Of a stretch of DNA of 64,000 bases, positions 7,733-31,087 are shown piece by piece. The stretch is taken from NCBI RefSeq assembly GCF_009827435.1, contig NZ_WTYM01000038.1:1-64000 (forward strand). The letters are read 5' to 3'. The notes under the pieces are model-generated. The model was given only the letters and a program-made list of their open reading frames with translations. It did no database searches and was not told the DNA's origin. Position 1 is the stretch's first letter. Every line of letters begins with the position of its first letter. Source of the DNA: Croceibacterium salegens. Its GTDB lineage: Bacteria; Pseudomonadota; Alphaproteobacteria; Sphingomonadales; Sphingomonadaceae. A program made the position numbers and the translations under genes.

Positions 7733-7746
7733 GCAGAGCGCGCCCC

Positions 7747-8373
7747 ATGATCGCTCGCATCATCGCCCGTTTCGCCGCGGCCCTCTCCGCACTGGCGCTC
7801 GCCGGTGCGGCGCAGGCCGCCGACATCACCGTCACCGTAACCGACGACAGCGGCCGCCCGGTGCCCGACGCCGTGGTGATCGCCGACGTTCCCGGCGCCA
7901 AGGTCCCGCCCAAGGGCGTGTTCCGCATCGACCAGAAGGACACCGCCTTCGTGCCCTTCATGCTGGTCGTGCCGGTCGGCTCGCGGGTCGAGTTCGCCAA
8001 CCTCGATCCCTTCCGCCACCACGTCTACTCGTTCTCGCCGGGCAACAAGTTCGAGCTCAAGCTGTTCGGCAAGGGCGAGGTCCGCTCGGCGGTGCTGGGC
8101 ACCGTCGGCACAGTCGCGATCGGCTGCAATATCCACGACACCATGCAGGCGTTCGTGAGGGTGGTCGACACCCCCTACGCCCTGCGCACCGACGACAGGG
8201 GTCGAGCGGTGCTCAAGGGCGTTCCGGCCTCGGCACGGACCCTGCGCGTGTGGCACCCGCGGCTGCGCGCACCGGGCAACGAACTCAAGCTGGCGATCAA
8301 TCCTGCGGGCAACCTGTCGCTGCCGGTCAAGGTCAAGCTGCGCCGCCCGGCGCCGATGAGCCACGACTATTGA
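7747..8373 (+). CDS. Cupredoxin-like periplasmic protein (methylamine-utilization-like)
   Basis: This 208-residue secreted protein has a signal peptide ending AGAAQA near residue 22. A carboxypeptidase-regulatory-like strand region (DDSGRPVPDAVVIADV) is followed by a plastocyanin-like fold. Candidate type-1 copper ligands are the His in DPFRHHVYSF and the Cys, His and Met of GCNIHDTMQAF (C-x2-H-x2-M). Homologues are often labelled methylamine utilization protein without evidence for that pathway. The gene sits between the barrel protein and the GGDEF-EAL gene, whose ATG follows its stop by one base. It may be an electron or copper carrier that reports to the c-di-GMP protein. Confidence 0.8.
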   Translation: MIARIIARFAAALSALALAGAAQAADITVTVTDDSGRPVPDAVVIADVPGAKVPPKGVFRIDQKDTAFVPFMLVVPVGSRVEFANLDPFRHHVYSFSPGNKFELKLFGKGEVRSAVLGTVGTVAIGCNIHDTMQAFVRVVDTPYALRTDDRGRAVLKGVPASARTLRVWHPRLRAPGNELKLAINPAGNLSLPVKVKLRRPAPMSHDY

Positions 8374-10735: not shown

Positions 10736-12085
10736 TCAGTTCGCCTCGGCGGCTTCCTCGGCGTTGAGCCGCTCGACCTCGGCGCGGAAGGGCTTGAGGC
10801 CGAGCCATGTGACGACGAGCGATGCCGGCAGGAATACCACGTGGAGCAGCACGATCGACCATCGGAGGTCGTCGGGCGAGGTGAAGATGACGTCGGTCGT
10901 CAGCCCGGTGACGTAGGGCGCGAGACCCACGCCGACGACGGTGTAGATGAACAGGTACAGCGTCATGATCTGCCCGCGGATCTGGTTGGGCGAGATCGCC
11001 AGCATGACCGCGTTGAGCATCGGCCCGCTCATTCCCAAAGTGAGGTAGATGACGCCGTTGAAGGCCAGCGACAGCTCGGGCGTGGGCGTCAGCGGCATCA
11101 TGATCGAGAACGGGATCGCGGCCAGCCGGGTGTAGAGGATCACGCGGTAGGCGCCGGCGGGGTCGCCGCGGTTCTGGAACCACTCGGCCCACTTCGCCCC
11201 GAGGAAGAGCCCGGTAAGCATGAGAGGGATCGAGATGATCCCCGAAGCGATGCCGTAGGTCGCCGGCGACCAGCCATAGGTCCGCTCGAAGAACGCCGCG
11301 CCCCAGGCCCGCCCGCCGACGTCGAGCGAACCGATGGTCAGTCCGATGAACATCGGTCCGAACACCGCGAAGCGCAGCCACAGGTACCTCAACGTGGTGC
11401 GGAGGCCCGCCTTTTCGGTGCGCAAGGTGAGGTTGCGGCGCGGCGGTTCCTTGACCGAAAGCAGGAGCAGCGAGACCAGCAGGCCGGGCAGGCCGACGCC
11501 GAGCAGCACTGCCTGCCAGGGGCGCAGCACGCCGACCAGCGGTAGGTCGGGCGAGCCGACCGGCGCGACCAGCCAGATCATCGCCCCGCCGAGCAGCAGC
11601 GACAGCCCGCTCCCGGCGACGGTGCCGAGTTGCAGCGTCGCCACCGCGCGCGGCAGTCGCTCGCGCGGGAAGCTGTCGGCGACCATCGAATAGGCGGTCG
11701 GCCCGTTGACCGACTCCCCCGCGCCGACGACGACGCGGGCGACGAACAGCTGGCTGAAGCTGGCGGCGAGGCCGGAGGCGGCGGTGGCGAGGCTCCACAC
11801 CACCAGCCCGCCCATGACGATCCACTTGCGTGTCCAGCGGTCGATGTAGCGCGAGAAGGGCACGGCCACGAGCGCGTAGAAGATCGCCTGCGTCGGGCCG
11901 AGCAGCAGCCCGGCCTCGGAATCGGTCAGGTCGAAGTCTGTCTTGATCTGCTGGATCAGCAGCCCGAGGATGTTCTGGTCGAGCAGCGCGAAGGTGGTGA
12001 TGACGGCGAGGACGCCGACCGTGTACCAGGCCTGGCGCGGCGTGGGATACTCGCTTGCCCCCGGCGTCGCGGCTTCGCTTGCCAT
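10736..12085 (-). CDS. MFS transporter, Spinster-like
   Basis: This 449-residue permease has about 12 hydrophobic helices, the motif-A-like loop FSRYIDRWTRKWIVMGG after TM2, and an early DQNILGLLIQQIKTDFDLTDSEAGLLLG segment typical of Spinster/Spns-like MFS proteins of proteobacteria. The ATG follows a strong GGAGGGGGAGAGG. It is the last gene of the 13-gene minus-strand block and could import the block's substrate. The 3' end is convergent with the GGDEF-EAL gene, only 15 bases apart. Confidence 0.88.
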   Translation of the reverse strand: MASEAATPGASEYPTPRQAWYTVGVLAVITTFALLDQNILGLLIQQIKTDFDLTDSEAGLLLGPTQAIFYALVAVPFSRYIDRWTRKWIVMGGLVVWSLATAASGLAASFSQLFVARVVVGAGESVNGPTAYSMVADSFPRERLPRAVATLQLGTVAGSGLSLLLGGAMIWLVAPVGSPDLPLVGVLRPWQAVLLGVGLPGLLVSLLLLSVKEPPRRNLTLRTEKAGLRTTLRYLWLRFAVFGPMFIGLTIGSLDVGGRAWGAAFFERTYGWSPATYGIASGIISIPLMLTGLFLGAKWAEWFQNRGDPAGAYRVILYTRLAAIPFSIMMPLTPTPELSLAFNGVIYLTLGMSGPMLNAVMLAISPNQIRGQIMTLYLFIYTVVGVGLAPYVTGLTTDVIFTSPDDLRWSIVLLHVVFLPASLVVTWLGLKPFRAEVERLNAEEAAEAN

Positions 12086-12131
12086 TGCTGCCCTCTCCCC
12101 CTCCGACTGCGTTTGCTAGCGCACTTCCCTG

Positions 12132-12851
12132 TTATCCCCAACGCCCCGGTTCGGGCCCCATGACCGCGACCGGGAACAGGTCTTCCTTCAGCGCCGCGAC
12201 CGACGGGCGCGCGGCGACCCGCTCCATCCAGTCGTCGATCTCGCGCGGGTAGCGGATCCCGAGCATGGCGAACTGGAACAGGTGCGGGAACACCGCGATG
12301 TCGCCGATCGTGAAGGTGTCGCCGCACAGCCATTCGTTGCCGGCGAGGTCGTCGGCGAGGCGGTCGCCGGCCTTGACCAACGCGTTGGTCGAGACAGCAA
12401 GCTGCTCGGGGCCGAAGCCCTCCATCGCCCGCTGCCATAGTTGCGCGCGTTCCGGCAGGAGCCGCTCCAGCCCCGCCCTGGCGTGCCCGGGCACCTTCCC
12501 CTTCAGCGCCGCCCACCGCGCGATCGCCAGGTGCGACGCGATATGGGTCTCGACATACTTGCCCCACTTGCTGGCAAGATACCGCTCCCGCGGATCGCCC
12601 CCGGCCAGCACCGTCCCCGGATGCACTTCATCAAGATACTGCAGGATCGCAAAGCTATCGAACAACAACCGCCCCCCGTCCCGCAAGGTCGGCACCATCC
12701 CGTGACAGTTGACCTCGAGGTATTCGGGCGAGTGCTGCTCGTAGGCGACCAGGTCGAGCTTATGCAGCTGGTGCTCGATGTCCTTTTCGGCGAGGACGAT
12801 GCGCACGGCGGTCGAATGCGGCGAACCCGGCGCATAGTAGAGCGTGATCAT
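12132..12851 (-). CDS. Glutathione S-transferase family protein
   Basis: This 239-residue GST has a thioredoxin-like N-domain (LYYAPGSPHSTAVRIVLAEKDIEH, cis-Pro in GMVPTLRDGG, FDSFAILQYLDE) and a helical C-domain with the family segment GDTFTIGDIAVFPHLFQF. The Ser in the PGSPHS segment is the candidate for activating glutathione. The ATG overlaps the stop of the preceding GST by the ATGA arrangement, so both are made together. The pair lies between the DUF6152 cluster and the MFS gene. Its substrate is unknown. Confidence 0.85.
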   Translation of the reverse strand: MITLYYAPGSPHSTAVRIVLAEKDIEHQLHKLDLVAYEQHSPEYLEVNCHGMVPTLRDGGRLLFDSFAILQYLDEVHPGTVLAGGDPRERYLASKWGKYVETHIASHLAIARWAALKGKVPGHARAGLERLLPERAQLWQRAMEGFGPEQLAVSTNALVKAGDRLADDLAGNEWLCGDTFTIGDIAVFPHLFQFAMLGIRYPREIDDWMERVAARPSVAALKEDLFPVAVMGPEPGRWG

Positions 12852-13630
12852 CGGACGGTGGCCTCGCTAACGCTCAGCTGCTGGCGAATTTCGGCGGCGC
12901 GCTGGCCGATGAAGCCGCGGCCGATGCGGAACGCGGCCTGCAGGGCAGGCCGTTCGTGACAGCGCCGCAACCAGCGCAGCAAGTTGGGCGTTTTGCTTTC
13001 GTTGACCTCCGCGGGCCGCGCCTGCGACAGGCCGTAGAACGTCGCGAATACACCGATGTCGGCGAGCGAAAATTCCTCGCCTGCCAGCCAAGGGTGCCGT
13101 TCGAGGATCGCGTCGAAGCGCCCGATCGCCTCGGCCACGCGGCGTTCGGACTCGGCGATTTCTTCCTCGGAGGTCGACTGGAACATCAGCTTTTCCCAGG
13201 CTGTCCGGCGTTCCGGGAGGGGGATACGGTCGAGCTGAGCGCGAAGTTCGGCGGGGTCCTGGCCGACGAATCGCGGTGCCGCCAGCCGGTTCGAGGCGAT
13301 CATCGCCAGCGATGGGGCGACAACGTTGTCCATGTAACGCATGAGGATGCGCATTTCCCAGCGACGAAAGGGGTCCTCAGGTCGCAGCGACGGGCCTTCG
13401 AAAACCTCGTCGATGTATTCCATCGCCGGGGTGCTCTCGGTCATGACGAAGCCGTCATGGACTATGGCCGGGATCGTACCGTCGGGGTTGATGGCGAGGA
13501 ATTCGGGCGAGAAATGCTCGTGCGCGCCCATGTCCACGTAGTGATGGGTGAACGGGACACCCTTCTCGGAGAGGCAGAACAGCGGCTTTCCCGAATTCGC
13601 ATTCGGTTCCCAGGTATAGACTTCTATCAT
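12848..13630 (-). CDS. Glutathione S-transferase, LigE/LigF-like
   Basis: This 260-residue GST has an N-domain (VYTWEPNANSGKPLFCL, DGTIPAIVHDG, ESTPAMEYIDE) close in pattern to the LigF-like protein at 5061-5783. It shares the RPEDPFRRWEMRILMRYMD block seen in beta-etherase relatives. The C-domain carries the expected FSLADIGVFATFYGL segment. The start is ATG at 13630. A short upstream gap (80 bases) separates it from the secreted protein gene, and it could hold a promoter (TTGACG near 13694). It probably acts on an electrophile or ether made by the oxidases of this block. Confidence 0.85.
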   Translation of the reverse strand: MIEVYTWEPNANSGKPLFCLSEKGVPFTHHYVDMGAHEHFSPEFLAINPDGTIPAIVHDGFVMTESTPAMEYIDEVFEGPSLRPEDPFRRWEMRILMRYMDNVVAPSLAMIASNRLAAPRFVGQDPAELRAQLDRIPLPERRTAWEKLMFQSTSEEEIAESERRVAEAIGRFDAILERHPWLAGEEFSLADIGVFATFYGLSQARPAEVNESKTPNLLRWLRRCHERPALQAAFRIGRGFIGQRAAEIRQQLSVSEATVR

Positions 13631-13710
13631 TGTCTTCCCGGCTCGTGCCGACGTGACCCGGGAAGTTCGCTATCGTGCCGTCTTGCTAACGTCAATCAAT
13701 TGCATTTAAG

Positions 13711-14508
13711 TCATTCAAATAGCGTATGACCGTTCTCGTCAACCGGGTTTCGATCATTCTGCGAGCACTGGAATTCGAGCAACTTCCCGTAGCGATCGCG
13801 CCGATAGCGCGTGGTCACCTTGAACGGAGCTTCGAGCGCCTCGGGATCGTCCATGGTCATCTCGTTGACCAGCACGTCGGCATCGGCAGGGTCGAGGTGG
13901 ATACGCTCGACGAGGTGGAACTGCTCCGAGTGCGGGATGCCGGTGTCGATCTCCAGATCGCCCGAGATGCCCACCGTGTCGACCACCAAAGTATCGCCCT
14001 CCCAATGGCCGATCGAATCCCCCATGAATCCGGGATCGTGGTCCGGGTCATGCTCGCGACCATCGGTCCAGATCGTGCGCGTCTGCATCCACGCTTCCTG
14101 GTTGATGGTCACCCGGCCCGGCGCGAAGATGAACTCGTAGGGGTACTGCGCGAGACGCATGATGCGCGGCATGCCCGGCGGGCTGCAGTTGGAGCGCGCC
14201 CGCGGCACCACGCCGTCGTTTTCCTGCACTTGCTGGCGGAAATCCTCGAGTTGCTTGGCGTATTCGGCCTTGAGCTGGGGTCTCGGTGGTGGCGGGTCGC
14301 CCGGTTTCGGCAATGCAAAGGTGACGAACCAGATGCCGCCCCAATCGGGCAGAGCATCGAGTTCGGCGTAGTGTCCCTTGGGATTGGCCGAGCCCGCGCC
14401 TTCGGCAATGCCGTCCGGCGGCGGTGACTTGGTCGGCGCACCCAGTTGCGCGGCGGCCGGGGCGGCAAGTGCGACAGCCGCCACGGCGGCAACGGTCCAG
14501 ACCCGCAT
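13711..14508 (-). CDS. Secreted protein, paralogue of 15282-16196 (A2)
   Basis: This 265-residue exported protein of unknown function has a signal peptide (about 1-21, ending APAAAQ). It shares with the 304-residue protein upstream the core SIGHWEGDTLVVDT, preceded by a FxGD/YNGE turn and followed by EQFHLVERI and an RYRRDRY segment. Two CPPGMP-like segments (CSPPGMPRIM here) are also common to both. Its ATG shares bases with the stop of the DUF6152 gene (TGATG). The fold is probably beta-rich and periplasmic. Families with this core are common near DUF6152 genes in sphingomonads, but no activity is known to me. Confidence 0.8.
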   Translation of the reverse strand: MRVWTVAAVAAVALAAPAAAQLGAPTKSPPPDGIAEGAGSANPKGHYAELDALPDWGGIWFVTFALPKPGDPPPPRPQLKAEYAKQLEDFRQQVQENDGVVPRARSNCSPPGMPRIMRLAQYPYEFIFAPGRVTINQEAWMQTRTIWTDGREHDPDHDPGFMGDSIGHWEGDTLVVDTVGISGDLEIDTGIPHSEQFHLVERIHLDPADADVLVNEMTMDDPEALEAPFKVTTRYRRDRYGKLLEFQCSQNDRNPVDENGHTLFE

Positions 14509-14876
14509 CAGCCGACGTCGCCCAGCGTCGACCCGTCCGAAAGCTTGACCCCGACGTAGGAACCGCCCTTGGCCCCCGTACGAAGCGGATGAACGTAGAG
14601 CGTCACCTTGTCGCCCGGCTTGAGCGAGGAACGCTTCCACCCCTCCTGCACCAGGTTGTTGGGGCTGGTCATCTCGATCGCCCAGTTCTCGACACCTTCC
14701 GGCGCCTTGACGTCGACGAGGATGAAGCTGTGCGGGTTCTGCCACTTGAACTTGGTCACCGTGGCATCGAGCGCGATTGTCTTCCTCATGTCGAACATCG
14801 AATAGGAATGGTGCGCCGCCGCCGGCCCCGCGATCAGCGCCAGTGCCGGGAGCAGCAGCTTGCCAAGCGTGTTCAT
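14508..14876 (-). CDS. DUF6152-family secreted protein (D2)
   Basis: This 122-residue periplasmic protein has a signal peptide ending GPAAA, so the mature chain is predicted to begin HHSYSMFD. Conserved blocks shared with the neighbouring copy are NPHSFI, SPNNL, GWKRSSLKPGDKVTL and HPLRTG. The fold is likely a small beta-barrel (OB or CopC-like). An N-terminal His next to a conserved NPH motif would suit a copper site, which is inference. The ATG at 14876 follows GGAGAGG. It is translationally coupled to the downstream A2 gene. Confidence 0.85.
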   Translation of the reverse strand: MNTLGKLLLPALALIAGPAAAHHSYSMFDMRKTIALDATVTKFKWQNPHSFILVDVKAPEGVENWAIEMTSPNNLVQEGWKRSSLKPGDKVTLYVHPLRTGAKGGSYVGVKLSDGSTLGDVG

Positions 14877-14893
14877 TGTTGCCTCTCCAGTTC

Positions 14894-15292
14894 TCATAGC
14901 TTCGGCACGTTGACCGGCTCGCCGTTCTTCGGAAGACCCGAATCGAGCACCGTGCCGTCGGCCTTCTTCAGATCGAGGAACAGCCCGCCAGGCTGCCCGC
15001 TGCGCAGGGGATTCATCCGCAAGGTGATCTTGTCGCCGGCCTTGAGCGAGGAACGCAGCCAGCCCTGCCGCTTCAGGTTGTTCGGGCTGTTGAGTTCGAG
15101 CGACCAATGCTTTCCGCCCGGCACGTCCATCTCGATGAAGGCGTGCGGGTTGGTCCACTGGAAATCGGTCACGGTGCCTTCCAGCGTCATGATCTTCTTC
15201 TGGTCGAACATCGCAAAGCTGTGGTGCGCCAGCGCCGGCGCTGCGGCCAGCAGCGCGGCCGCGCCAGCCAGGGCCCATCGGCTAATTGTCAT
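14894..15292 (-). CDS. DUF6152-family secreted protein (D1)
   Basis: This 132-residue paralogue of D2 lies directly upstream. The signal peptide ends AAAPALA, leaving HHSFAMFD at the predicted mature N-terminus. Shared blocks are WTNPHAFIEMDV, LNSPNNL, GWLRSSLKAGDKITL and NPLRSG. The start ATG lies inside the last codons of the preceding secreted-protein gene (11-base overlap). The tandem D1-D2 pair flanked by A1 and A2 shows a duplicated, mirrored secreted module. Confidence 0.86.
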   Translation of the reverse strand: MTISRWALAGAAALLAAAPALAHHSFAMFDQKKIMTLEGTVTDFQWTNPHAFIEMDVPGGKHWSLELNSPNNLKRQGWLRSSLKAGDKITLRMNPLRSGQPGGLFLDLKKADGTVLDSGLPKNGEPVNVPKL

Positions 15293-16196
15293 CGTTGACC
15301 CCCTCGATCTCGCTCTGGCCGCGTTCTTTCGCCGCCTCGCTGCCGAGCGCGGTGCCGGGCAGGTTCTCGTTGTACTGCAGGATGCAGTGGCTCTCATTGA
15401 TGTCGGTGTAGTCGGCGCGGTCGAAACGCTTGGTAGAACGCCATTCGCCTTCCCACATCGTCGGATCGGTCATGATGTATTCGATCTGCATGACCTTGCC
15501 ACCCGCGGGCATGGTGATGCGTTCGACCATCGCGAACTGGTCGTCGATCGGGATGCCCTGGTCGATGTAGTGGTTGTCCGGCTCGAAATAGCGGGTGTCG
15601 ACGACCAGCGTATCGCCTTCCCAGTGGCCGATCGATTCACCGTTGTAGCTCGGCACGACGATGTCCGGGTCGGTGTGTTCGCGCCCGTCGAGGAAGATCG
15701 TGCGGACCGCATTGTTGAAGCCGGAAATCATGTAGATCGCGGTTGGCAACTGGATGAAGGCATGCGGCCAGACACGCGTCATGATCATCGGCATGCCCGG
15801 CGGGAAGCACTGGCCGATCGCATCGCGATAAGTCTCGTTGCGCGCGGCGTACTTCGGCGCCTCGATCAACGCCTCGCGCCCCTCGGCATAGAACTTTGGA
15901 TAGGGCGGGCCAAACATGAACTTGGCGAAGCCCTCGTGCAGGTCGATAAACCAGGTCCCGGTCACATCGAACGGCGGCTTGGGGCGGGCCTTGTTGAGAT
16001 TCTCCGGCGCCAGCGCACCGAGGTACCCCGGATGCTTGGGCACCATTTCGCTGTAGCGCTCGGGCGGAATCGGCGTCAGCGGACGCACCACGTTGGGCTG
16101 CGCCGGCAGGTCGCCCTCGGCGGGGTATGCGTCCTGCGCCAACGCGGGCGCTGCAAGCCCTGCTGCGAGGATCGCCATGGTAACCAGATGCCGCAA
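15282..16196 (-). CDS. Secreted protein, paralogue of 13711-14508 (A1)
   Basis: This 304-residue exported protein of unknown function has a signal peptide ending AAPALAQ. It shares SIGHWEGDTLVVDT, CFPPGMPMIM and DQFAMVERI with A2 but has a longer N-terminal part (YLGALAPENLNKARPKPPFDVTGTWF). The start is taken as TTG at 16196 because AGGGAG sits six bases ahead; an ATG six codons later has no ribosome site. It opens the A1-D1-D2-A2 set, 64 bases after the hydrolase gene, and overlaps D1 by 11 bases. Confidence 0.8.
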   Translation of the reverse strand: MRHLVTMAILAAGLAAPALAQDAYPAEGDLPAQPNVVRPLTPIPPERYSEMVPKHPGYLGALAPENLNKARPKPPFDVTGTWFIDLHEGFAKFMFGPPYPKFYAEGREALIEAPKYAARNETYRDAIGQCFPPGMPMIMTRVWPHAFIQLPTAIYMISGFNNAVRTIFLDGREHTDPDIVVPSYNGESIGHWEGDTLVVDTRYFEPDNHYIDQGIPIDDQFAMVERITMPAGGKVMQIEYIMTDPTMWEGEWRSTKRFDRADYTDINESHCILQYNENLPGTALGSEAAKERGQSEIEGVNDDN

Positions 16197-16260
16197 GACC
16201 CTCTCCCTTCCGCGACCTTTTTGACTTTCTCACATGGCTTAGCGCTGAATACCGCGCCTG

Positions 16261-17349
16261 TCAGCCCAAATCCTTCTCCAGCAACCACTCTTCGATCACA
16301 TTGGCGACCTCGTCGCTATTGCTTTCGAGCTGCATGGCATGGCCGTTACCTTGCACACCGCGCTCCTCGAGCCGGACGTGTTCGGCGGCGACCCCGGCCT
16401 GGCGCAGAAACGCGACGATCGCATGGTTGTCCGCCGCCATCCACGAAGCCTCGGCGGTCACGACGACGACCGGGAAACCCGAAGCGAGATTGGGCAGGCG
16501 CCGCGCCGGTTCGGCCTGCACCTTGTAGGCAACCAGCCCTTCGCCAGGCGACGGGCGGTCCTCGCTCGCCAGTTCCTCGCCTTCGGCCAGTGGCGGGTCG
16601 TAGGTGAGCGGCGCGCGTGTAATGCCGTAGGGCAAAGGGCCGCTGATTGCCTGGAACGGCGGGCCGAGCGGCTCGGCGGCCACCAGCCCTTTGACAAGCT
16701 CCGGCCGGATATCGGCGATGAGCCAGCCGGGCGGACCGCCGGCCGAATGGCTGAGCAGGATCGCCGGGCCAATGCGGTCGAGCAGTTCGGCCCCGGCGCG
16801 CTGGGCATCGGCCTGCCACTGCGCCACGTCGGCCAGCGTCGGCCCCGTCCCGGCGAGGAACGAGAGGAACGCTGGGTCGTCCATCTTGCCCGTCCCCGGC
16901 CATTTGTCGTGCAGCGAGGCCTGCGGATAGTTGTCGTCGAAGTCCTGCGGCCGAGTGAACAGGCGCTCGAGGAACACGGTCGGTCCTGGCCCAGCCATCT
17001 CACCCTGAAAGGCGGGCTGGAACGGGCTGCGGCCGTGCTGTGGGCGGTCGACCACGTAAACCGCCCAGCCACGCCGGACAAACCAGTGGACCCAACCTTC
17101 GCGCCCGTCCGCCGTGCCAAGAAAATCGGTGCCCTGCCCCCCGCCGCCATGGATCATCACGATCGGCCATGGGTGGCGAAGGTCCCTGGGGATCCAGTAC
17201 TCGTTGTACTGCTGCCCACGCATGGCCTTGCCGGCCACCGGGTGGTCGATCAGTTCGCCCCCGGTCCAGAAGAAGCCTTGAGCCGCCAATTCGAGAGGAT
17301 CGGCCTTGCCCGCCGCATGGAGCGCGACCGGGCGATAGTCACGCCCCAT
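16261..17349 (-). CDS. Alpha/beta-fold hydrolase (esterase-like)
   Basis: This 362-residue serine hydrolase shows the oxyanion-hole region VMIHGGGGQGTDF near residue 66, the nucleophile elbow SHSAGG near 203 (S-x-S-x-G instead of the classic G-x-S-x-G), and the His-containing GNGHAMQLES near the C-terminus. A long lid region with Trp/Pro separates strand and elbow. No signal peptide is seen. The ATG shares bases with the stop of the FAD monooxygenase gene (TGATG), so hydroxylation and ester or ring hydrolysis are probably linked steps in one pathway. Confidence 0.85.
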   Translation of the reverse strand: MGRDYRPVALHAAGKADPLELAAQGFFWTGGELIDHPVAGKAMRGQQYNEYWIPRDLRHPWPIVMIHGGGGQGTDFLGTADGREGWVHWFVRRGWAVYVVDRPQHGRSPFQPAFQGEMAGPGPTVFLERLFTRPQDFDDNYPQASLHDKWPGTGKMDDPAFLSFLAGTGPTLADVAQWQADAQRAGAELLDRIGPAILLSHSAGGPPGWLIADIRPELVKGLVAAEPLGPPFQAISGPLPYGITRAPLTYDPPLAEGEELASEDRPSPGEGLVAYKVQAEPARRLPNLASGFPVVVVTAEASWMAADNHAIVAFLRQAGVAAEHVRLEERGVQGNGHAMQLESNSDEVANVIEEWLLEKDLG

Positions 17350-18602
17350 CAGTGGATCTGCCCTTGCCGACCGGCAATGTCGATCGCCACCCCCGGAGTC
17401 GGATCGGCGTCCTTCCAGCGCGAGCCGGAACGCAGCACGTTACCGATCACCTTGTAGGCGAACAGCATCAGCAGCGCGCCGGACTCGGGATCTTCCTTCA
17501 GCGCCTTGATCGCCGCGAGGTCCTTCCGGCGCTGCTCGAGGTCCTTCTCCTGCAGCATGCGCTTGTTCTCTGTCGCCGCCGGGGAGACGATGTCCCAGAA
17601 TATCCGCCGCCGCTCGTCGGAGAAGCGGTCGAGGATTTCCTCGCCTTCCTCGCCGCGGATTACCGCGCCGAGCACGTCAGCCAGCACCACGCCGGTCCAA
17701 ACTCCTGAAGTCAGGCCAAGCCCGCCGCATGGGTTGGTCGCATGCGCCGCATCTCCGGCCAGCAGGACATGGCCCTTGTGCAGCGTTTCCGCTGCGCGCT
17801 GGTGCAGCATGTAGGGGCTGGAGGAGACAATTTCGTAGTCCCTGCTCCCCTGCATGAACCACTCGTAGCGGTCGTGAATCCGCTCCTCGTAGGTGTCGAG
17901 CGGGAGGCTCGCGTCCTCCATGTAGGTGCAGCGCCATAGTCCGTCGCGGTCGAGTTGGGCGATCACCGCCATGTTGACCGGGTCGCAGACGAAATTGGCC
18001 TGCTGGTACCCGATTTTGCGGAAGTCGAACTTCACGTTGGTGGCGACGAAACGCTCGGGCCAGGTGTGGCCTTCGAACTCGATGCCCGCGAGCCGTCGCA
18101 CCGTGCTGCGCGCGCCGTCCGCGCCGATCAGCCATGTGGCCGAGAAGGTCTTCTCGCCGTCGGCAGTGCTGGCAGCGACGGTAACGCCGTCCTCACCGTC
18201 GACGATGGCGGCCACCTCGTGATCGAAAAGCACTTCGACTCCGAGCTTCACCGCATGTTCCATCGCCACCCGGGCGACGTCGTGTTGGCCGGCGTGGAGC
18301 TGGTAGTCGTAGGGAATGCCCTCGACCGGCTCGGTAGTGACCACCGAAGAATAGCCGAATTCTGGCACGTGGGTGCCGAAGTCGCGGTTCTGGAAACCGA
18401 TGGCGTTGAGCTCGCCGAGAAGGCCCAGTTCCTCGAGGATGATGAGCGTGGAGGGGAAATAGACCGCGGCGCGCGGCGAATTGATGATCTCCGGCTCGCG
18501 TTCGAGCACGGTGACCGAGGCCCCGCCTTGCGCCAGCGCCAGCGCGGTCAGCATCCCGACCGGCCCGGCCCCAACCACGATTACGTCCTTGCTCTCGCCC
18601 AT
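17349..18602 (-). CDS. FAD-dependent aromatic-type monooxygenase (PHBH fold)
   Basis: This 417-residue group A flavin hydroxylase has an N-terminal Rossmann motif VVGAGPVGML, the DG motif in GADGARSTVRR (about residue 160) and the GD motif GDAAHATNPCGGLGL (about 280). It resembles the MhpA/PheA-like hydroxylases acting on phenolic acids, but lacks their C-terminal thioredoxin-like domain. It uses NAD(P)H and O2. It is coupled to the downstream hydrolase and lies 69 bases after the ThDP enzyme gene. The substrate is unknown. Confidence 0.88.
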   Translation of the reverse strand: MGESKDVIVVGAGPVGMLTALALAQGGASVTVLEREPEIINSPRAAVYFPSTLIILEELGLLGELNAIGFQNRDFGTHVPEFGYSSVVTTEPVEGIPYDYQLHAGQHDVARVAMEHAVKLGVEVLFDHEVAAIVDGEDGVTVAASTADGEKTFSATWLIGADGARSTVRRLAGIEFEGHTWPERFVATNVKFDFRKIGYQQANFVCDPVNMAVIAQLDRDGLWRCTYMEDASLPLDTYEERIHDRYEWFMQGSRDYEIVSSSPYMLHQRAAETLHKGHVLLAGDAAHATNPCGGLGLTSGVWTGVVLADVLGAVIRGEEGEEILDRFSDERRRIFWDIVSPAATENKRMLQEKDLEQRRKDLAAIKALKEDPESGALLMLFAYKVIGNVLRSGSRWKDADPTPGVAIDIAGRQGQIH

Positions 18603-18671
18603 CGCCTCGACTCTCCTTGGAGCGGGAGTCCTATCGGCTCATTTGATTCACGCAAAGGCGAATGCTGCGCA

Positions 18672-20345
18672 TCATCCGCGCGAAATCACGGTTTCCTGCT
18701 CGGTGATGAATTCGACCAGCGCCGGTTGGCCGGCCTCGGTCGCGGCGATAGCCCTACGCAGCGCCGGGACGATCTCGTCTGCCTCGGTCACCCGCTCACC
18801 GTGGCATCCGAGCGAGCGCGTGAACATCGCGTAATCGCCGCTGATGTCGGTGGCGCGATACTTTGCCGTGGCCTCCGGCATGATCGGGATTTCGATCGCC
18901 ATCGCCGCATTGTTGAGCAGGATCGAGAGGATCGGGATGTTCTCGCGCGCGGCGGTCTCGAGGTCTGTGCCGGTGAAGCCGATCGCAGCATCGCCCCAGA
19001 CGTTGATGCACAGTTTATCGGGGCAAGTGAGCTTGGCGCCCATGGCGAGGCCGAGGCCGTAGCCGAGCTGGGTCGACTTGCCCCAGCCGATGTAGCCATG
19101 CGGGGTGGTGGACTTCCAGAACGGCACGAGCTGGTCGCGCGGGGAGCCGGCGTCGTGGGTGATGATCGTGTTGTCGACGTCGACGGTGTCGTAGAGTTCG
19201 CGCAGCACGCGGTAGGGCGAGAGCGGGCTAGTATTCTGATTACGCTTGGTTTCCCACTTCGCCAGCCAGTCGCGTTCGCAGTCCTTGATCGCCTGCGCCA
19301 CCGGCGCGGCATCGCGCGGTTTGGGTTCGCGCCGCTTCGCTTCATCGAGCATGGCCGCCAGCGTCAGCTTGGCATCGCCGACCAGCGCCAACTCGCTCGG
19401 CACCGACTTGTCGATGTCGAGCGGGTCGAGAGTTGCGTGAATCAAGCGCTTCATCGGGGGGATGGACAGTCCGAACGGCGTCGCAGTGAAGCTGCATCCG
19501 ATGCCGAACAGCACGTCGCACTCGGCCAGCCACTTCGCCACGCAGCCGTTGATGCCGTTGCCGCCCGAACCGAGCGCCAGCGGGTGGGTCTCGTCGAACG
19601 TCGACTTGCCGGGCAGGCTGGTCATCACGGGGATAGCCAAGTGCTCGGCCAGCGCCTGCAATTCGACATAGGCTTCCGACCAGTGCACGCCTTGACCCGC
19701 GTAGATCGCGGGATTCTTCGCGCTCATCAGCACATCGAGCGCGGCGGAGACGCTCTCGGCGGATGGCTGCGAGGTCACTACCTTTCCCGGCACATAGCCC
19801 AAGTCGCCCTCGTAAGGCTTGTCGAGCACGTCGTAGGGAAGTTCGGTCACCACCGGCTGCGGGCGTCCGTTGCGCAGCATCGAGAAGGCGCGGCGCAGCA
19901 CGGGCACGACATCGCCGCCGCTGGTCAGCGGCTCAGCGTGCTTGGCGTAGCTCGCCATCGAGCGGGTCGAGTTGAAGTTGTACGGCACGTACATCTGCGA
20001 CAGCGCGTAACCCTGCGGCATCACCAGCACCGGCACGCTCTCGGCAAAGGCCTGCGCCACGCCGCCCATCGCGTTCTCCGCGCCGGGGCCCTGTTGCATC
20101 ACGAAGACGCCCATCTGGCCGCCCTTGCTCATCCGGCTCATCGCGTCGGCCATGTGCAGGCCGGTGCGTTCCTGCCGCACGATCACGGTGCGGATGTCGA
20201 TCCGCGCCGCCGCCTCGAGGATCTGGTTGCGCGGATAGCCGAAGACGATCTCCACGCCCTCGCGCTTGAGCACCGCTGCGATGGCATCGGCCACCGTGCC
20301 ATTGGCATGCACTTGCTGGTCGGCCTTGCCGCTGCCTTGTCTCAT
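18672..20345 (-). CDS. Thiamine-diphosphate-dependent enzyme (acetolactate synthase/decarboxylase superfamily)
   Basis: This 557-residue ThDP enzyme has an N-terminal PYR domain with the activating Glu in RQERTGLHMADAMSR, a middle domain, and a C-terminal PP domain with the cofactor motif WGDAAIGFTGTDLETAA...LLNN. Overall pattern fits the poorly characterized thiamine pyrophosphate-requiring group near benzoylformate decarboxylase and acetolactate synthase. The start is ATG 20345 beside a 13-base gap from HupE. Clustering with an FAD hydroxylase and hydrolase suggests a 2-keto acid lyase or ligase step. Confidence 0.88.
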   Translation of the reverse strand: MRQGSGKADQQVHANGTVADAIAAVLKREGVEIVFGYPRNQILEAAARIDIRTVIVRQERTGLHMADAMSRMSKGGQMGVFVMQQGPGAENAMGGVAQAFAESVPVLVMPQGYALSQMYVPYNFNSTRSMASYAKHAEPLTSGGDVVPVLRRAFSMLRNGRPQPVVTELPYDVLDKPYEGDLGYVPGKVVTSQPSAESVSAALDVLMSAKNPAIYAGQGVHWSEAYVELQALAEHLAIPVMTSLPGKSTFDETHPLALGSGGNGINGCVAKWLAECDVLFGIGCSFTATPFGLSIPPMKRLIHATLDPLDIDKSVPSELALVGDAKLTLAAMLDEAKRREPKPRDAAPVAQAIKDCERDWLAKWETKRNQNTSPLSPYRVLRELYDTVDVDNTIITHDAGSPRDQLVPFWKSTTPHGYIGWGKSTQLGYGLGLAMGAKLTCPDKLCINVWGDAAIGFTGTDLETAARENIPILSILLNNAAMAIEIPIMPEATAKYRATDISGDYAMFTRSLGCHGERVTEADEIVPALRRAIAATEAGQPALVEFITEQETVISRG

Positions 20346-20358
20346 CTACTCATCCCTA

Positions 20359-21333
20359 TCAGGCGATCCGCTCGAACATCCAGTAGCTGGCGAGGATGCC
20401 CACCGCATAGGCGGCAATTCCCTGCACGCGCTGCGGATGTCCCAGCGCGGGCAGTCGGGCAAGCCCGTGCAGCACGGCGAAGACCACAGCGGCGAACGCG
20501 ACCTGCCCCAGTTCGATGCCGAGGTTGAAGGCCAGCAGCGCGGTCACCAGCCCTTCTTTCGGCAGGCCGATCTGGCCGAGCACCGCGGCAAAGCCGAAAC
20601 CGTGCAGCAGCCCGAAGCTCATCGCCACGAACACCGGCCTGCGCCAGGTCAGCGTATCGCGCGGGCCCTTGGCGATCTCGACCGCGAGGAAGACGATCGA
20701 CAGCGCGATCACCGCCTCGACAGCGCCGGGCGGGAAGGTAACGAGACCGAGCGCGGCGAGCGCCAGGGTGATCGAATGCGAAATCGTGAACCCGGTGATC
20801 GTCACCGCGGTGCGCCGCCAGGTCCGGGCGATGAAGATCAGCCCGGCGACGAACAGCAGGTGGTCGATGCCGGTCCAGATGTGCTCCACGCCGAGCCTGA
20901 GGAAGCGCAGGAACAGGTTCTCGTCGGCTGGTTTGGCCGGAATGGCGACGGTGAGTTCGCCGGGCTGGGCAAGGATCGTCTCCTCCTCCTCGCGAGCAGG
21001 GTGGAGCCGGACGATCGTCGCCAGCGGCGGGGCACCGCGCGGATAGGCGAGCGTGATGGACTTTCCTGCGAGCGACGCGCTGCAGGTGAAACGCACACCG
21101 CCCCAATACCCGAGTTCGTCGCTCCATCGTCGGCTCGGCCCGAGCGGCTCACAGCCCTCGGGTACACCGACTTCGGGCACCATGTAGGCGGCAAGGTTGG
21201 CCGGTACACGCCAGCGCATGTCCCATTCGCCCGGCTTTCCCTCGTCGAGGGTCAGCGCAAGCGGTCGGTTGTCGTCGGCCCGCGCCGCCGCTGGAACCAG
21301 CGCCAGCAGCAGCGCAAGGCACAGCATCCGCAT
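20359..21333 (-). CDS. HupE/UreJ-family membrane protein with periplasmic N-domain
   Basis: This 324-residue protein has a signal peptide (about 1-19), a periplasmic beta-domain (20-165) and about six helices starting after LGVEHIWTGIDHLLF. The His/Asp of GVEHIWTGIDHLLFV and the His of TGFTISHSITLAL are typical of HupE/UreJ proteins, which are linked to nickel or other metal handling. No urease or hydrogenase gene is present here. The ATG shares bases with the PPIase stop (TGATG). It forms a conserved-looking trio with PPIase and DUF3604. Confidence 0.87.
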   Translation of the reverse strand: MRMLCLALLLALVPAAARADDNRPLALTLDEGKPGEWDMRWRVPANLAAYMVPEVGVPEGCEPLGPSRRWSDELGYWGGVRFTCSASLAGKSITLAYPRGAPPLATIVRLHPAREEEETILAQPGELTVAIPAKPADENLFLRFLRLGVEHIWTGIDHLLFVAGLIFIARTWRRTAVTITGFTISHSITLALAALGLVTFPPGAVEAVIALSIVFLAVEIAKGPRDTLTWRRPVFVAMSFGLLHGFGFAAVLGQIGLPKEGLVTALLAFNLGIELGQVAFAAVVFAVLHGLARLPALGHPQRVQGIAAYAVGILASYWMFERIA

Positions 21334-22172
21334 CACCGCGTGCGCACCTCGTAGCGGTCGAGCAAGTCGCCCACCGCCTGCGTGGTGACCGCATTGCGCT
21401 TCGCCGCCAGCGCATCCTCGCGCACCCGGTCTTCGATATCGGCGAGCGCGGGAACCTTGGCGGGAGTCAGTTCGCGCAGCAGCACGAGGTGCCAGCCGTG
21501 ATCGGACTGGACCGGGCCCTGCCATCCGGTGCCGGGATTCAGGCCAAGCAGGGCCTGCACGAAGCCGATGCCGAACTGGGCTGCCAGTTCCTCGGTGCCG
21601 GCATCGGCATAGTTGGCCTGGTAAAGGAACCGGTCGCCGTATTCCTCGGCGCCTGCGTCCTTGCGCAGGACTGCCAGGGCCGCCTCGGCGCGCGCCCTGG
21701 CGTCAGGGCCTGCGAAGAACAGGTGGCCGAAACTGGCCGAACCCGGATCGGCATAGGCTTCCTTGTTGTCTTCGTAGAACTTGCGCACCTCGGCATCGCT
21801 GACCGCAAGATCGCCCGAAGCCTCTTGGGTCAGGACCTGACGCATCTGCTGGATCGTGCGCAGGCGCACCACGCCATCGATGGTGTCGAGGCCGAGCGCC
21901 CGTCCTTCGCGCCACAACGCCTCGTCGGCAGCGGCCTCCTCGACCAGCTTCTCCTTGTCGGCGGCCGGCATAGCCCGCAGCGCGCGCAGGGCCGCCTCCC
22001 GGTCGGTCGCGCCGGTCTGCTGCAGGAGCCGCGTCGCCAGCGCATCGTCGTCGACGACGATGACGTGCCCGGCTTCGGGCGCGGGCGAGAACAGCGAGGC
22101 GCCGAAATAGAGCAGCGCGCCGGCAATCAGGAAATGGACAAGCGGTTCGCGCAGCCAGGCGGGTGCCTTCAC
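21333..22172 (-). CDS. Membrane-anchored parvulin-like peptidyl-prolyl isomerase
   Basis: This 279-residue protein has an N-terminal helix (PLVHFLIAGALLYFGASLF), a SurA-N-like helical region, and a C-terminal parvulin-like segment (SASFGHLFF, GPVQSDHGWHLVLL). A GTG start overlaps the DUF3604 stop (GTGA). It probably faces the periplasm and may help fold the HupE-like N-domain or the DUF3604 partner encoded beside it. Confidence 0.85.
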   Translation of the reverse strand: MKAPAWLREPLVHFLIAGALLYFGASLFSPAPEAGHVIVVDDDALATRLLQQTGATDREAALRALRAMPAADKEKLVEEAAADEALWREGRALGLDTIDGVVRLRTIQQMRQVLTQEASGDLAVSDAEVRKFYEDNKEAYADPGSASFGHLFFAGPDARARAEAALAVLRKDAGAEEYGDRFLYQANYADAGTEELAAQFGIGFVQALLGLNPGTGWQGPVQSDHGWHLVLLRELTPAKVPALADIEDRVREDALAAKRNAVTTQAVGDLLDRYEVRTR

Positions 22173-24070
22173 GGAGTGTACCAGACCGGCGAAGACCAGG
22201 CGCGCTCCTGTATCGTGGTGGGCAGCTTCAGTGTCGCCGGGTCGATGTTGAGCGCCAGCGCGTCATAGACGTGGTGGCGGATCGTCGGCACCTGCAGGAC
22301 GCGCACGTAGTAGAAGGCACGCTGTTTGGGATCGAACTCGGGATCGCTCCAGAAGGTCGCCAGCTCGCTCGCCCCGGCGTTCCAGTCGTTGCGCCAGTGG
22401 ACCTTGTCGACCGGGTCGGCGACGGCGGGCAGCTTGCCGTTGGCACCGATCCGACGGTCGCCCGACCATACGACGTCGAAGACCTTCTCGTGCGTCTTGC
22501 CCGCGGAATCCACCCAGCCCTTGATCACCTGCACGCGGTCGAGCCCGGCGTTCATCGGGTCCTTCTCGGCACGGATGACGAAGCGCGGGGCAACGCCGGT
22601 CGAGGGAGCAAGCTGACCGCCCATCGGCACGCCCTTGCGATAGCCGATCGTACCGAAATCGGCGGCCTTCTCGTCGCCCGCGGCAAAGCCGTATCCCGCG
22701 AACAGGCGCACGCGCATGCGCGGGCCGCTGGTGGCGTAGACCTCGCGGCGGCGGAACGCGTCGAACACGCCCTGGCGCGTATTTTCGTCAGCCCATGCCC
22801 CGGTCAGCCCGGCCGCCGACATCTCCGCCGCCGGGAAGATGATTGGCACCTTGTCGGGTCCGAGCCGGTCCTTGGGCAGGTAATCCTCGGCGAGCTTGCC
22901 TAGGAAGTTCTTTTCGTCGACCGAGACGAGGCCGGTGTGACTGTCGGTCGCCCCGCCCATGCCGTAGCGGAACGGGTTGACCCCGATGCGCTGTTCCTCC
23001 GCCAGACCGCGCAGCAGCGCGCCGCGGACGTAGGAACCGGCAGACACTTCGGTCGGCACCCCGGTCAGCAGCATATTGCGCAGTTCGTACCCGGCGAACT
23101 CGTCGGTCGACGAAAGCTCGGGGTGGGTCTCGGACGTGCCTTTGTACTGCGTGACCTCGGTCACCGGCTCCCACGCCTGGCGCTTGCGCGCATAGTCGGC
23201 AGTAAACGGATTGCCGTCGCTGTCGGTGAGCTCGAACATGCGCCCGTCGCTGAGGTTGGCGTTGTGCGGCATGGCGATGAAATCGGCCCCAGTGCGATCA
23301 CGGGTCTGTTCAAGGAAGTTCCACAAGTCCTCGGGCCGCTCGCTCATCCAGTTGGCGAAAGGCGAGAACTTGGTGGCGACGTCGCCGCCGACGTTGGTGA
23401 AGACGACACGGTGCAGGTTGCGCAGCGCGGGCGCGCTGGTCCATTCCCAGCCGATCAGGGCGGTGAACTTGCCCGGCTCGTTGTACCTCTCGGCGGCGTC
23501 GATCTGGCCCTGCCAGCTGTCGTGCAACACCTCGTCGGTGTGGAAGGTATCGGCGTATTCCTTGCGCTCCTGGGGCGTCAGGTTGCTCCCGCCCATGGCG
23601 GAGGTGGTCAGCGCACGCGCGCCGGAAGCCTCGTACAATTGACGCAACCGCTTGCCGATCGGCAGCTTGAGCAAACGCGGGTCGTTGTCCTGGATGCGCG
23701 AGTTGATCGACAGGTTTACCGCATGGTCGGAGACGACGAGGAAATCGAGCGGGCGGTCGATCCGCACCCGCTGCTGCGTGCGCGGGAACACCACCGGGTA
23801 GCCTTTGGCAAAGCGATAGGCGGTGTCGATGTCGGTCGCGTTGCCCGATCCGAAGGCGTCAACCGAATTGCGCGTGTGCAGGTGGGTGTCGCCCCACAGC
23901 AGCATGCGGTCCTGCGTCGGCGCGGGGACGCGGGTCGAACCCGCCAGTTCGACCTTGAGCGGCCGGTCATCGGGCGCGGGTGCCTGCTGGGCGCATCCGG
24001 ACAGCGCCAACGCTGCTGCACAGACGCCGCCCGCGAGGATGCGAAGCTCCGCTCGGCTGCCGATTCTCAT
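22169..24070 (-). CDS. DUF3604 lipoprotein (PHP-like metal-binding fold)
   Basis: This 633-residue protein has a lipobox (AALALSGC, Cys near 26), then LLWGDTHLHTRNSVDAF with the paired His typical of PHP-like metallohydrolases, plus VVSDHAVNL and MPHNANLSDG as further candidate metal ligands. DUF3604 is widespread in marine bacteria next to HupE and PPIase genes; its reaction is unknown. The start is ATG 24070 after GGGGGAGGGCAAGG. It is the first gene of the 13-gene block, and the intergenic palindrome at 24164 lies about 95 bases upstream. Confidence 0.88.
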   Translation of the reverse strand: MRIGSRAELRILAGGVCAAALALSGCAQQAPAPDDRPLKVELAGSTRVPAPTQDRMLLWGDTHLHTRNSVDAFGSGNATDIDTAYRFAKGYPVVFPRTQQRVRIDRPLDFLVVSDHAVNLSINSRIQDNDPRLLKLPIGKRLRQLYEASGARALTTSAMGGSNLTPQERKEYADTFHTDEVLHDSWQGQIDAAERYNEPGKFTALIGWEWTSAPALRNLHRVVFTNVGGDVATKFSPFANWMSERPEDLWNFLEQTRDRTGADFIAMPHNANLSDGRMFELTDSDGNPFTADYARKRQAWEPVTEVTQYKGTSETHPELSSTDEFAGYELRNMLLTGVPTEVSAGSYVRGALLRGLAEEQRIGVNPFRYGMGGATDSHTGLVSVDEKNFLGKLAEDYLPKDRLGPDKVPIIFPAAEMSAAGLTGAWADENTRQGVFDAFRRREVYATSGPRMRVRLFAGYGFAAGDEKAADFGTIGYRKGVPMGGQLAPSTGVAPRFVIRAEKDPMNAGLDRVQVIKGWVDSAGKTHEKVFDVVWSGDRRIGANGKLPAVADPVDKVHWRNDWNAGASELATFWSDPEFDPKQRAFYYVRVLQVPTIRHHVYDALALNIDPATLKLPTTIQERAWSSPVWYTP

Positions 24071-24163
24071 GTCCTTGCCCTCCCCCGGAGCAGTGCCGCT
24101 CCATTGGTCCGTACAATGTCACCTCGCCCCGGCGCTGTGAAGTACGGGCCTGCCTATCGGCAT

Positions 24164-24181
24164 GATAACCGTCCGGTTATC
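24164..24181. promoter_or_regulatory. Perfect palindrome between divergent genes, probable operator
   Basis: GATAACCG and CGGTTATC are exact inverted copies separated by TC. The site lies midway in the 172-base region between divergent genes (DUF3604 lipoprotein start 24070, MBL hydrolase start 24243). The size and symmetry match TetR-family operators. No TetR gene is in the window, so the regulator would be encoded elsewhere. If real, it could control both the 13-gene block and the hydrolase. Confidence 0.6.
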
Positions 24182-24242
24182 GCTTTGCAGGCTTCCGCCG
24201 CGCCCGCTGTTGGGGCACGATGGCGGCAAGGGAGAGACGACG

Positions 24243-25133
24243 ATGCAACCGATTCAACTCGGCCGGATGCGGATTCACAAGGTCCACGAGATGGACAGCC
24301 CGGTGCCGCTGCTCGGCCAGCTGCCCGGCGTCACCGGTGCGGACATGAAGCGGCTGCTGACCTGGTACGACCAGCCCGACGAGGTCAACGCCGATCCCGA
24401 AACCAGCCTGATGACCTTCTCGGTCCACTCATGGGTCATCGAGATCGACGGCCGGACCGTGCTGATCGACACTTGCGACGGCAACGACAAGCATCGCCTG
24501 ATCCCCGAGGTCAGCAACCTCAACACCGACTACCTCGGCAACCTGCGCCGCGCCGGGTTCGAGCCGGGCGACATCGACCTCGTCATGTGCACACACCTGC
24601 ACTTCGACCATGTCGGCTGGAACACCCGGCTGGAGAACGGCAAGTGGGTGCCGACCTTCGAAAACGCCCGCTACCTGTTCGGCAAGCGCGACTACGAATA
24701 CTTCAAGACCCAGCCCGAGAGCGAGATCGTCCACCTCGAGGCCTTCCTCGATTCGATCGTGCCGATCATGGAAGCGGGCAAGGGCGAGCTGGTCGACGAG
24801 GACCACGTCGCGCTGGGCGAAATCGCCGACGGGGTGTGGATGGAACCGGCGTTCGGCCATTCGCCCGGCTGCTGCACGATCTCCGCACAGGCGGGCGGCG
24901 CGCCGGCGCTGTTCTGGGGCGACGTGATCCACCACCCGGTCCAGCTGATCCGCCACGACCTGCCCTTCGCCTTCGACACCGACGGGGTCATGGCCAGCAA
25001 GACCCGCAAGCGCACGATGGAGCGCGCGGCGGACGACGACCTGCTGTGCTTCCCGGCGCATTTCCGCCGCACCAGCGCCGGACGCGTGTTGCGTGATGGC
25101 GATGCCTTCAAATACGAGTGGCTGCCCGGCTGA
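24243..25133 (+). CDS. MBL-fold metallo-hydrolase (quorum-quenching lactonase-like)
   Basis: This 296-residue metallo-beta-lactamase-fold enzyme has the zinc motif THLHFDHVGW near residue 118, a further His in FGHSPGCC, the bridging Asp in FWGDVIHHP and a C-terminal FPAHF His. This matches the AiiA-like/MBL lactonase-hydrolase group. No signal peptide is visible, so it is cytosolic. The ATG at 24243 follows GGGAGAGACG. It is divergent from the 13-gene block and shares the palindrome between them, so it may open a lactone or ester in the same pathway. Confidence 0.88.
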   Translation: MQPIQLGRMRIHKVHEMDSPVPLLGQLPGVTGADMKRLLTWYDQPDEVNADPETSLMTFSVHSWVIEIDGRTVLIDTCDGNDKHRLIPEVSNLNTDYLGNLRRAGFEPGDIDLVMCTHLHFDHVGWNTRLENGKWVPTFENARYLFGKRDYEYFKTQPESEIVHLEAFLDSIVPIMEAGKGELVDEDHVALGEIADGVWMEPAFGHSPGCCTISAQAGGAPALFWGDVIHHPVQLIRHDLPFAFDTDGVMASKTRKRTMERAADDDLLCFPAHFRRTSAGRVLRDGDAFKYEWLPG

Positions 25134-28291: not shown

Positions 28292-28304
28292 GGCCTAGCC
28301 GCCG
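28282..28304. terminator. Hairpin spanning both stop codons of convergent genes
   Basis: CGGCGGCTA and TAGCCGCCG are exact inverted arms around a GGGCC loop. The left arm contains the putA stop (TAG 28289-28291) and the right side contains the G8-gene stop (28295-28297 read on the minus strand). It is a compact bidirectional stem-loop in a three-base gap. It lacks a T-tract on either side, so it may protect 3' ends rather than act as a classic terminator. Confidence 0.5.
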
Positions 28305-30880: not shown

Positions 30881-31087
30881 GAAACAGATCCCCTCGTTCA
30901 CGACCGGGCGTGCCGGTCTTGTCTTTGCACGCAGCATTGCGAGGGTTTTTGTACTTGGCAAGTCAGAACCCGCGGAGCTCGGGCGACGCGTATCTTCGAG
31001 GTACAAACGAGACCGAAATCTCATGGCCCAATTGCAGACATCGGCGCTTTGCCAGCCGCTGCATGGGTTCAAGCGACGCGATCCAGA

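Follow-up and report, generated by a model that had tools for sequence, protein, structure and literature searches.

Several described systems resemble parts of the locus reported here, a block of fourteen genes in a 64,000-nucleotide stretch of DNA from Croceibacterium salegens (contig NZ_WTYM01000038.1, positions 1 to 64,000; hereafter the window). The beta-aryl ether pathway of Sphingobium SYK-6 and Novosphingobium (LigDEFG, HpvZ/HpvY) has its likeness here in a LigF-like glutathione S-transferase (GST) in the operon and in LigE and protocatechuate/gallate-class extradiol dioxygenases in the genome. To our knowledge, that pathway has no PnpA/HspB-like FAD monooxygenase (FMO), alpha/beta hydrolase (ABH), thiamine diphosphate (ThDP) enzyme or pairs of secreted proteins of the kind termed A and D (DUF6152) below, all of which the operon in the window adds. 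By sequence and by its similar short length, the FMO falls in the same flavoenzyme group as p-nitrophenol 4-monooxygenase (PnpA) and 6-hydroxy-3-succinoylpyridine 3-monooxygenase (HspB), but the operon differs. Protein A1 shares its predicted barrel with fatty-acid- and retinol-binding proteins (calycins), but is secreted, carries an N-terminal helical extension and two (nearly) invariant Cys residues, and is only 8-19% identical to them. Metal binding has been shown for signal-strapping metalloproteins, in which a His immediately follows the signal peptide (DUF4198, DUF6702 and the anglerases Ang-1/2), among which DUF6152 is not included (PMC12537917). The DUF6152 proteins likewise have His after the signal peptide and further conserved His and Glu residues, but lie outside the four classes of that study, with a predicted OB (oligonucleotide/oligosaccharide-binding) fold, a stricter His-His start, pairing with A and high copy number. 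Altererythrobacter, a relative of this group, is reported to express ligE/ligF and lsd on lignin (PMC8027834), and the fate of beta-O-4 monomers has been described as not fully elucidated (PMC11837543).

We read the block as an operon, built from modules, for the uptake and catabolism of phenylpropanoid phenols, lignin-derived or similar, and assign this reading a probability of about 0.5; the substrate, the metal and the reaction order are what we infer from the comparisons below. The initial annotation had described thirteen co-directional genes, from 24070 to 10736, that overlap or are separated by no more than about 80 bp, together with a divergent hydrolase of the metallo-beta-lactamase (MBL) fold. 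This layout was borne out, with all fourteen open reading frames (ORFs) at their places and a gene order whose conservation in related genomes makes chance untenable, and searches with Pfam and NCBIfam models returned the same domains (MFS, GSTs, DUF6152, ABH, FAD_binding_3, ThDP, HupE_UreJ_2, Rotamase_2, DUF3604, and MBL). The features are as follows, with E-values of database matches in brackets.

10736-12085, minus strand: major facilitator superfamily (MFS) transporter (Pfam MFS_1, 1.5e-35), syntenic in G003, CRAIB_MAG2 and Porphyrobacter BIN49
12132-12851, minus strand: GST b (GST_N_3/GST_C_2), with no single clear best PDB relative
12848-13630, minus strand: GST a, LigF-like by best PDB match
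13711-14508, minus strand: A2, secreted A-family protein homologous to A1
14508-14876, minus strand: D2, DUF6152 (PF19649, 6e-33), mature chain from 14813, beginning HHS
14894-15292, minus strand: D1, DUF6152 (PF19649, 1.8e-34), predicted OB fold, mature chain from 15226, beginning HHS
15095-15226, minus strand: predicted metal site of D1, with His1 and His2 at 15221-15226, His28 at 15143-15145 and Glu44 at 15095-15097
15282-16196, minus strand: A1, secreted A-family protein, predicted barrel like those of fatty-acid-binding proteins (FABP) and calycins
16261-17349, minus strand: ABH, 1qlw-like esterase, orthologues present in 11/299 genomes, frequently next to the FMO
17349-18602, minus strand: FMO of the PnpA/HspB group (FAD_binding_3)
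18672-20345, minus strand: ThDP enzyme (NCBIfam NF004807, 750 bits against a cut-off of 607)
20359-21333, minus strand: HupE/UreJ_2 protein with periplasmic N-terminal domain (PF13795, HupE_UreJ_2, 1.6e-46), separable module
21333-22172, minus strand: PpiC-type peptidyl-prolyl isomerase (PPIase; Rotamase_2, PF13145, 4e-19), separable module
22169-24070, minus strand: DUF3604 lipoprotein-like protein (PF12228, 3e-212), PHP-like HxH motifs read by eye, separable module
24164-24181, no strand: inverted repeat GATAACCG-TC-CGGTTATC, possible operator, unique in the genome
24243-25133, plus strand: divergent MBL-fold hydrolase of the OPHC2/MPH/lactonase class (PF00753; OPHC2, 2e-18), adjoining ThDP in G001 and G002

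The cytosolic enzymes point to the catabolism of phenols. The FMO groups with the ipso-hydroxylases PnpA (2.9e-80) and HspB (6.5e-77), the next flavoenzyme following at 1e-28; PnpA and HspB hydroxylate the ring carbon that bears a leaving group para to the hydroxyl. The closest solved relative of GST a is LigF (1.2e-37 versus 2e-18 for the next GST), the ABH is esterase-like, and the MBL protein belongs to the OPHC2/MPH/dihydrocoumarinase/lactonase class. In two further genomes (G018 and G192), orthologues of the FMO-ABH pair (76-79%) are located between pyrroloquinoline quinone (PQQ) dehydrogenases, and a LigE-family beta-etherase (4yam, 1.5e-103) is encoded 4-6 kb away. In another genome (G122), the neighborhood of FMO-ABH relatives includes a Rieske oxygenase of the VanA type and an alcohol dehydrogenase of the iron-containing type. 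The genome of the window (G000) itself encodes a LigE protein (C15:33750-34571), 70% identical to the LigE-family protein of locus L128, and five matches to LigB-type extradiol dioxygenases, four of which were typed, all to the protocatechuate/gallate class. Judged from these sequences, the core looks like a pathway for lignin-type phenols, a substrate class that is supported, with a putative order of reactions given below. The ThDP enzyme had no close relative in the viral contigs searched. A link to glycerate kinase and hydroxypyruvate reductase was considered and dropped, as such-looking genes flank LigE even without FMO-ABH. In the LigE regions L127, L128, L149, L150 and L152, a periplasmic-oxidation set recurs: PQQ dehydrogenases, in twos or threes, together with a HupE-like protein and short proteins resembling cytochromes.

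Gene order was compared among related genomes by tblastn or Pfam matches, as the ORF caller at times picked antisense ORFs. In a congeneric genome (G003) all 14 genes are syntenic and in the same order, at 74-94% identity (71% for DUF3604) and with one extra DUF3604 copy. Croceibacterium CRAIB_MAG2 (G002, loci L035/L048) has 11 of the 14 in synteny, with a set comprising MBL, ThDP, FMO, ABH, A1, D1, D2, A2, GST a, GST b, a TonB receptor and the MFS transporter; DUF3604-PPIase-HupE is not at that place. Ten co-directional genes stand together in both genomes (66-94% identity). In C. soli (G001), MBL-ThDP-FMO-ABH and A1-D1-D2-A2 are on separate contigs, again with DUF3604-PPIase-HupE not at that place, and Porphyrobacter BIN49 encodes A1-D1-D2-A2-GST-GST-TonB receptor-MFS without MBL-ThDP-FMO-ABH. 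A ThDP orthologue (78%) is located beside a D-A pair in G017, so that both this enzyme and the GST-GST-TonB receptor-MFS genes again associate with A-D genes in other genera. These comparisons support the initial annotation in its proposal of one stage in the envelope and another in the cytosol, here an aromatic one, within a co-directional neighborhood, which is conserved. That all 14 genes form one pathway was not supported, as DUF3604-PPIase-HupE is separable and statistically independent and C. soli splits the core over two contigs. At least four modules make up the block, which comprises a phenol-catabolic core of up to eleven genes and an inserted DUF3604 module; a 14-gene single pathway is too wide a reading.

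DUF3604-PPIase-HupE is best read as a separate module inserted into the block, because it recurs alone, has a second copy in the same genome (C53; L115:4042-7808) and is independent of DUF6152 and LigE. The triad was found without the rest of the block in 8 of 12 sampled DUF3604 loci. In the 299 genomes of the family, 94 of which encode DUF3604, this domain occurs with DUF6152 in 4 (7.9 expected) and with LigE in 10 (11.6 expected), and DUF3604 was rejected as a core part. Like the Ang-1-HupE/UreJ_2 anglerase, the HupE protein of the window has an N-terminal periplasmic domain ahead of HupE_UreJ_2, but its mature chain starts DDNRP, without the N-terminal His of Ang-1; in its paralogue on C53, His is the first residue after the signal peptide (HEIRPAYL), which is the Ang-1 pattern. 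Tandem DUF3604 pairs head the triad in G003 (L033:1316-4875) and G018 (L156:4972-8561), and among the triads seen outside the genus, that of G018 comes closest to the window triad (65/47/56%). In the literature searched, DUF3604 was named in one paper, incidentally.

It is the A-D pair that gives the locus its lasting interest. DUF6152 proteins carry a histidine pair at the predicted mature N-terminus: HHS is present in 117 of 122 D sequences and, with signal-peptide cleavage assigned by an AxA-like motif, directly follows the signal-peptidase site in 109 of the 117. The five sequences without HHS are two truncated ones and three that begin HHA or HHG; every complete copy begins HH. In 88 aligned mature D sequences the only invariant positions are H1, H2, S3, N26, P27, H28, E44 and G64, of which H1-S3 are invariant partly by selection, as HHS was required of the alignment rows, and the others are not. 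An AlphaFold2 model of D1 adopts an OB fold (predicted local distance difference test, pLDDT, 90) that matches PriB and SSB (Z 8-8.7), with no CusF-like OB proteins among the fold matches listed. From the topology, one end of the barrel is expected to hold both H28 and E44, and an N-terminal-histidine metal site formed by H1, H2, H28 and E44 is predicted, the metal being a matter of conjecture. No paper naming DUF6152 was found in the literature searched.

Neither A1 nor A2 has a match among the Pfam or NCBIfam models, and the two are homologous to each other; Cys110 of A1 is invariant and Cys251 nearly so. Residues 52-248 of the A1 model (pLDDT 87) form a barrel that matches FABP and cellular retinol-binding proteins (CRBP; Foldseek E 1e-4, probability 1.00), and superposition on CRBP1 gave Z 9.3 and a root-mean-square deviation of 3.0 over 120 aligned residues, possibly reflecting a shared arrangement only. 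Barrels of the FABP/calycin type bind hydrophobic ligands, and the modeled A1 barrel fits such binding, with the nature of the ligand conjectural, although a shared fold alone shows no function.

The two families occur as partners. In the collected loci, a D gene lies within 500 bp of A for 123 of 140 A proteins, and in an independent set of 20 further loci chosen by their DUF6152 match alone, A was present in all 20. HHS and NPH were likewise found in 20/20 of this set, with HHS directly after a signal-peptide-like stretch and followed by the usual D sequence in 19/20 (L174 differs). A search with A1 yielded 58 loci, from Erythrobacteraceae to metagenome-assembled genomes of Gammaproteobacteria, almost all of which contain the A1-D1-D2-A2 quartet in whole or in part. 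The quartet loci include TonB receptors in about 20, a gene not in the window block, and MarR regulators in 14. The genome of the window has 19 A matches and 20 DUF6152 matches, in diverged copies beside different genes, although the true copy number is uncertain, as near-identical A-D copies may break the assembly. Several A-D pairs are located at the ends of contigs C18, C24, C25, C26, C36 and C55, and the DUF6152 matches at the C25/C26 and C36/C55 ends score identically. Among 124 proteins flanking 20 non-quartet pairs were seven PQQ dehydrogenases, six SGL proteins and three SnoaL proteins; 124 control proteins had none of these among the families listed, and at most 1/124 PQQ dehydrogenase. 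The non-quartet flanks support a link of A-D to extracytoplasmic oxidation.

Multicopy DUF6152 co-occurs with LigE. With thresholds of E <= 1e-15 and two or more copies for DUF6152 and E <= 1e-70 for LigE, LigE was found in 23 of the 25 genomes of the family with multiple DUF6152 versus 14 of the 274 others, and at genus level in 9/9 versus 5/87, counts that ignore phylogeny. The two multi-DUF6152 genomes without LigE are incomplete (73% and 87%), and DUF3604, taken as a control, had no association with LigE. The secreted A-D pair is unstudied, reaches about 20 copies per genome, is strongly associated with LigE, and has a specific predicted metal site, open to test, right at the N-terminus.

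In the catabolic and uptake operon that we propose, A proteins, as periplasmic FABP/calycin-like barrels, would hold the aromatic ligand, and their D partners, with an OB fold and an N-terminal His-His metal site, would assist capture or an oxidative step. The compound would enter via a TonB receptor, encoded in the operons of relatives and not in this block, and the MFS carrier. The LigF-like GST a could then reductively open the ether bond, and the FMO would hydroxylate the ring carbon with the para side chain, expelling the chain. Ester or lactone intermediates would be hydrolyzed by the ABH and MBL enzymes, and the ThDP enzyme may act on the short aldehyde or 2-oxo acid set free. At the promoter end, DUF3604-PPIase-HupE would be an inserted secreted-metalloenzyme module distinct from the rest. 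How lignin-derived oligomers cross the bacterial envelope, and what becomes of the side chain once the beta-ether is cleaved, are little-understood parts of lignin catabolism. A further proposal, for which our confidence is low, is that DUF6152 and A form a new secreted two-protein unit, a mononuclear-metal (copper) OB-fold protein and a ligand-binding barrel, that would bind or oxidize lignin-derived phenols outside the cytoplasm, with substrate-specific copies multiplied in beta-etherase-bearing bacteria.

A number of observations weigh against the lignin-phenol operon. No ring-cleavage enzyme, LigD or TonB receptor is encoded within the block, the LigE gene of this genome does not share a contig with it, and LigF-like GSTs can have other activities. 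The association with LigE is lineage-structured and may mark lifestyle rather than function. RPE65 (lignostilbene oxygenase type), seen near pairs in the window's genome and in gammaproteobacterial loci, was rejected as a general neighbor since it was not enriched in the 20 independent pair loci. Because non-quartet A-D pairs associate with PQQ dehydrogenases and SGL proteins and not with TonB receptors, the uptake role may not be general. These PQQ dehydrogenases (7/124 versus <=1/124 in controls) are also the main support for a different role of the pairs, namely metal handling, in which copper or another metal is captured for, or delivered to, periplasmic enzymes such as PQQ dehydrogenases and the pairs are not substrate-specific parts of a phenol pathway. 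The N-terminal His-His and invariant H28/E44 agree with such a role, as do the N-terminal-His DUF4198 proteins and anglerases, which are metal-capture proteins (PMC12537917). However, some 19-20 diverged copies per genome beside different genes fit substrate specificity better, and the A barrel has a hydrophobic-ligand fold, and we regard metal handling as unlikely.

Another possibility, on the unlikely side, is that the operon degrades a phenol, ester or lactone not derived from lignin (e.g., coumarin-like, terpenoid or polyketide phenols), with the GST step serving detoxification. The lactonase-class MBL and esterase-like ABH would suit these substrates, as would a block in which LigD is not seen and the Rieske oxygenase and alcohol dehydrogenase beside FMO-ABH in G122; the proximity to and co-occurrence with LigE and the LigF-like character of GST a argue instead for aryl ethers of the lignin type. 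There may also be no single system, the four modules being adjacent by chance or having only a promoter in common, and the modules are indeed apart in C. soli, C. xixiisoli, Alteraurantiacibacter and others. Yet the ten genes that stand together in G002 and G003, and the return of ThDP (G017) and GST-GST-TonB receptor-MFS (BIN49) to A-D genes in other genera, make this explanation improbable.

From the promoter end of the block, DUF3604/PPIase overlap by 4 and PPIase/HupE by 1, followed by gaps of 13 bp (HupE/ThDP) and 69 bp (ThDP/FMO), an FMO/ABH overlap of 1, a gap of 64 bp (ABH/A1), an A1/D1 overlap of 11, a gap of 17 bp (D1/D2), a D2/A2 overlap of 1, a gap of 80 bp (A2/GST a), a GST a/GST b overlap of 4 and a gap of 46 bp (GST b/MFS). 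No terminator-like sites were found on the minus strand of the block, in a scan that itself scores no better than chance. The palindrome described earlier between the block and the MBL gene has perfect 8-base arms, but these flank a 2-base center, TC; it occurs once in the genome. Its equivalent in G003 reads GATAACCAGCTGGTTATT, with both arms changed and the central 16 bases still palindromic. The repeat was rejected as a general core operator, being absent between MBL and ThDP in CRAIB_MAG2 and C. soli. The MBL start is most likely 24243 rather than 24162, because the ATG at 24162 falls at the palindrome and the alignment of an orthologue begins at 24243.

Beside the MBL gene lies putA (proline utilization; 25178-28291, plus strand), which is the same neighbor in G001, CRAIB_MAG2 and L095, and MBL may belong to an old MBL-putA neighborhood. 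Next to putA, a secreted beta-helix protein with G8 and CEMIP domains (PF10162 and PF24606) is encoded at 28295-31072 on the minus strand; the same domain pair is that of the animal CEMIP hyaluronidase. On the other side of the block, the downstream part (approximately 7720-8373, plus strand) of the ORF at 6817-8373 looks by eye like a secreted cupredoxin-like protein (HHVYSF...CNIHD), immediately ahead of a GGDEF-EAL protein.

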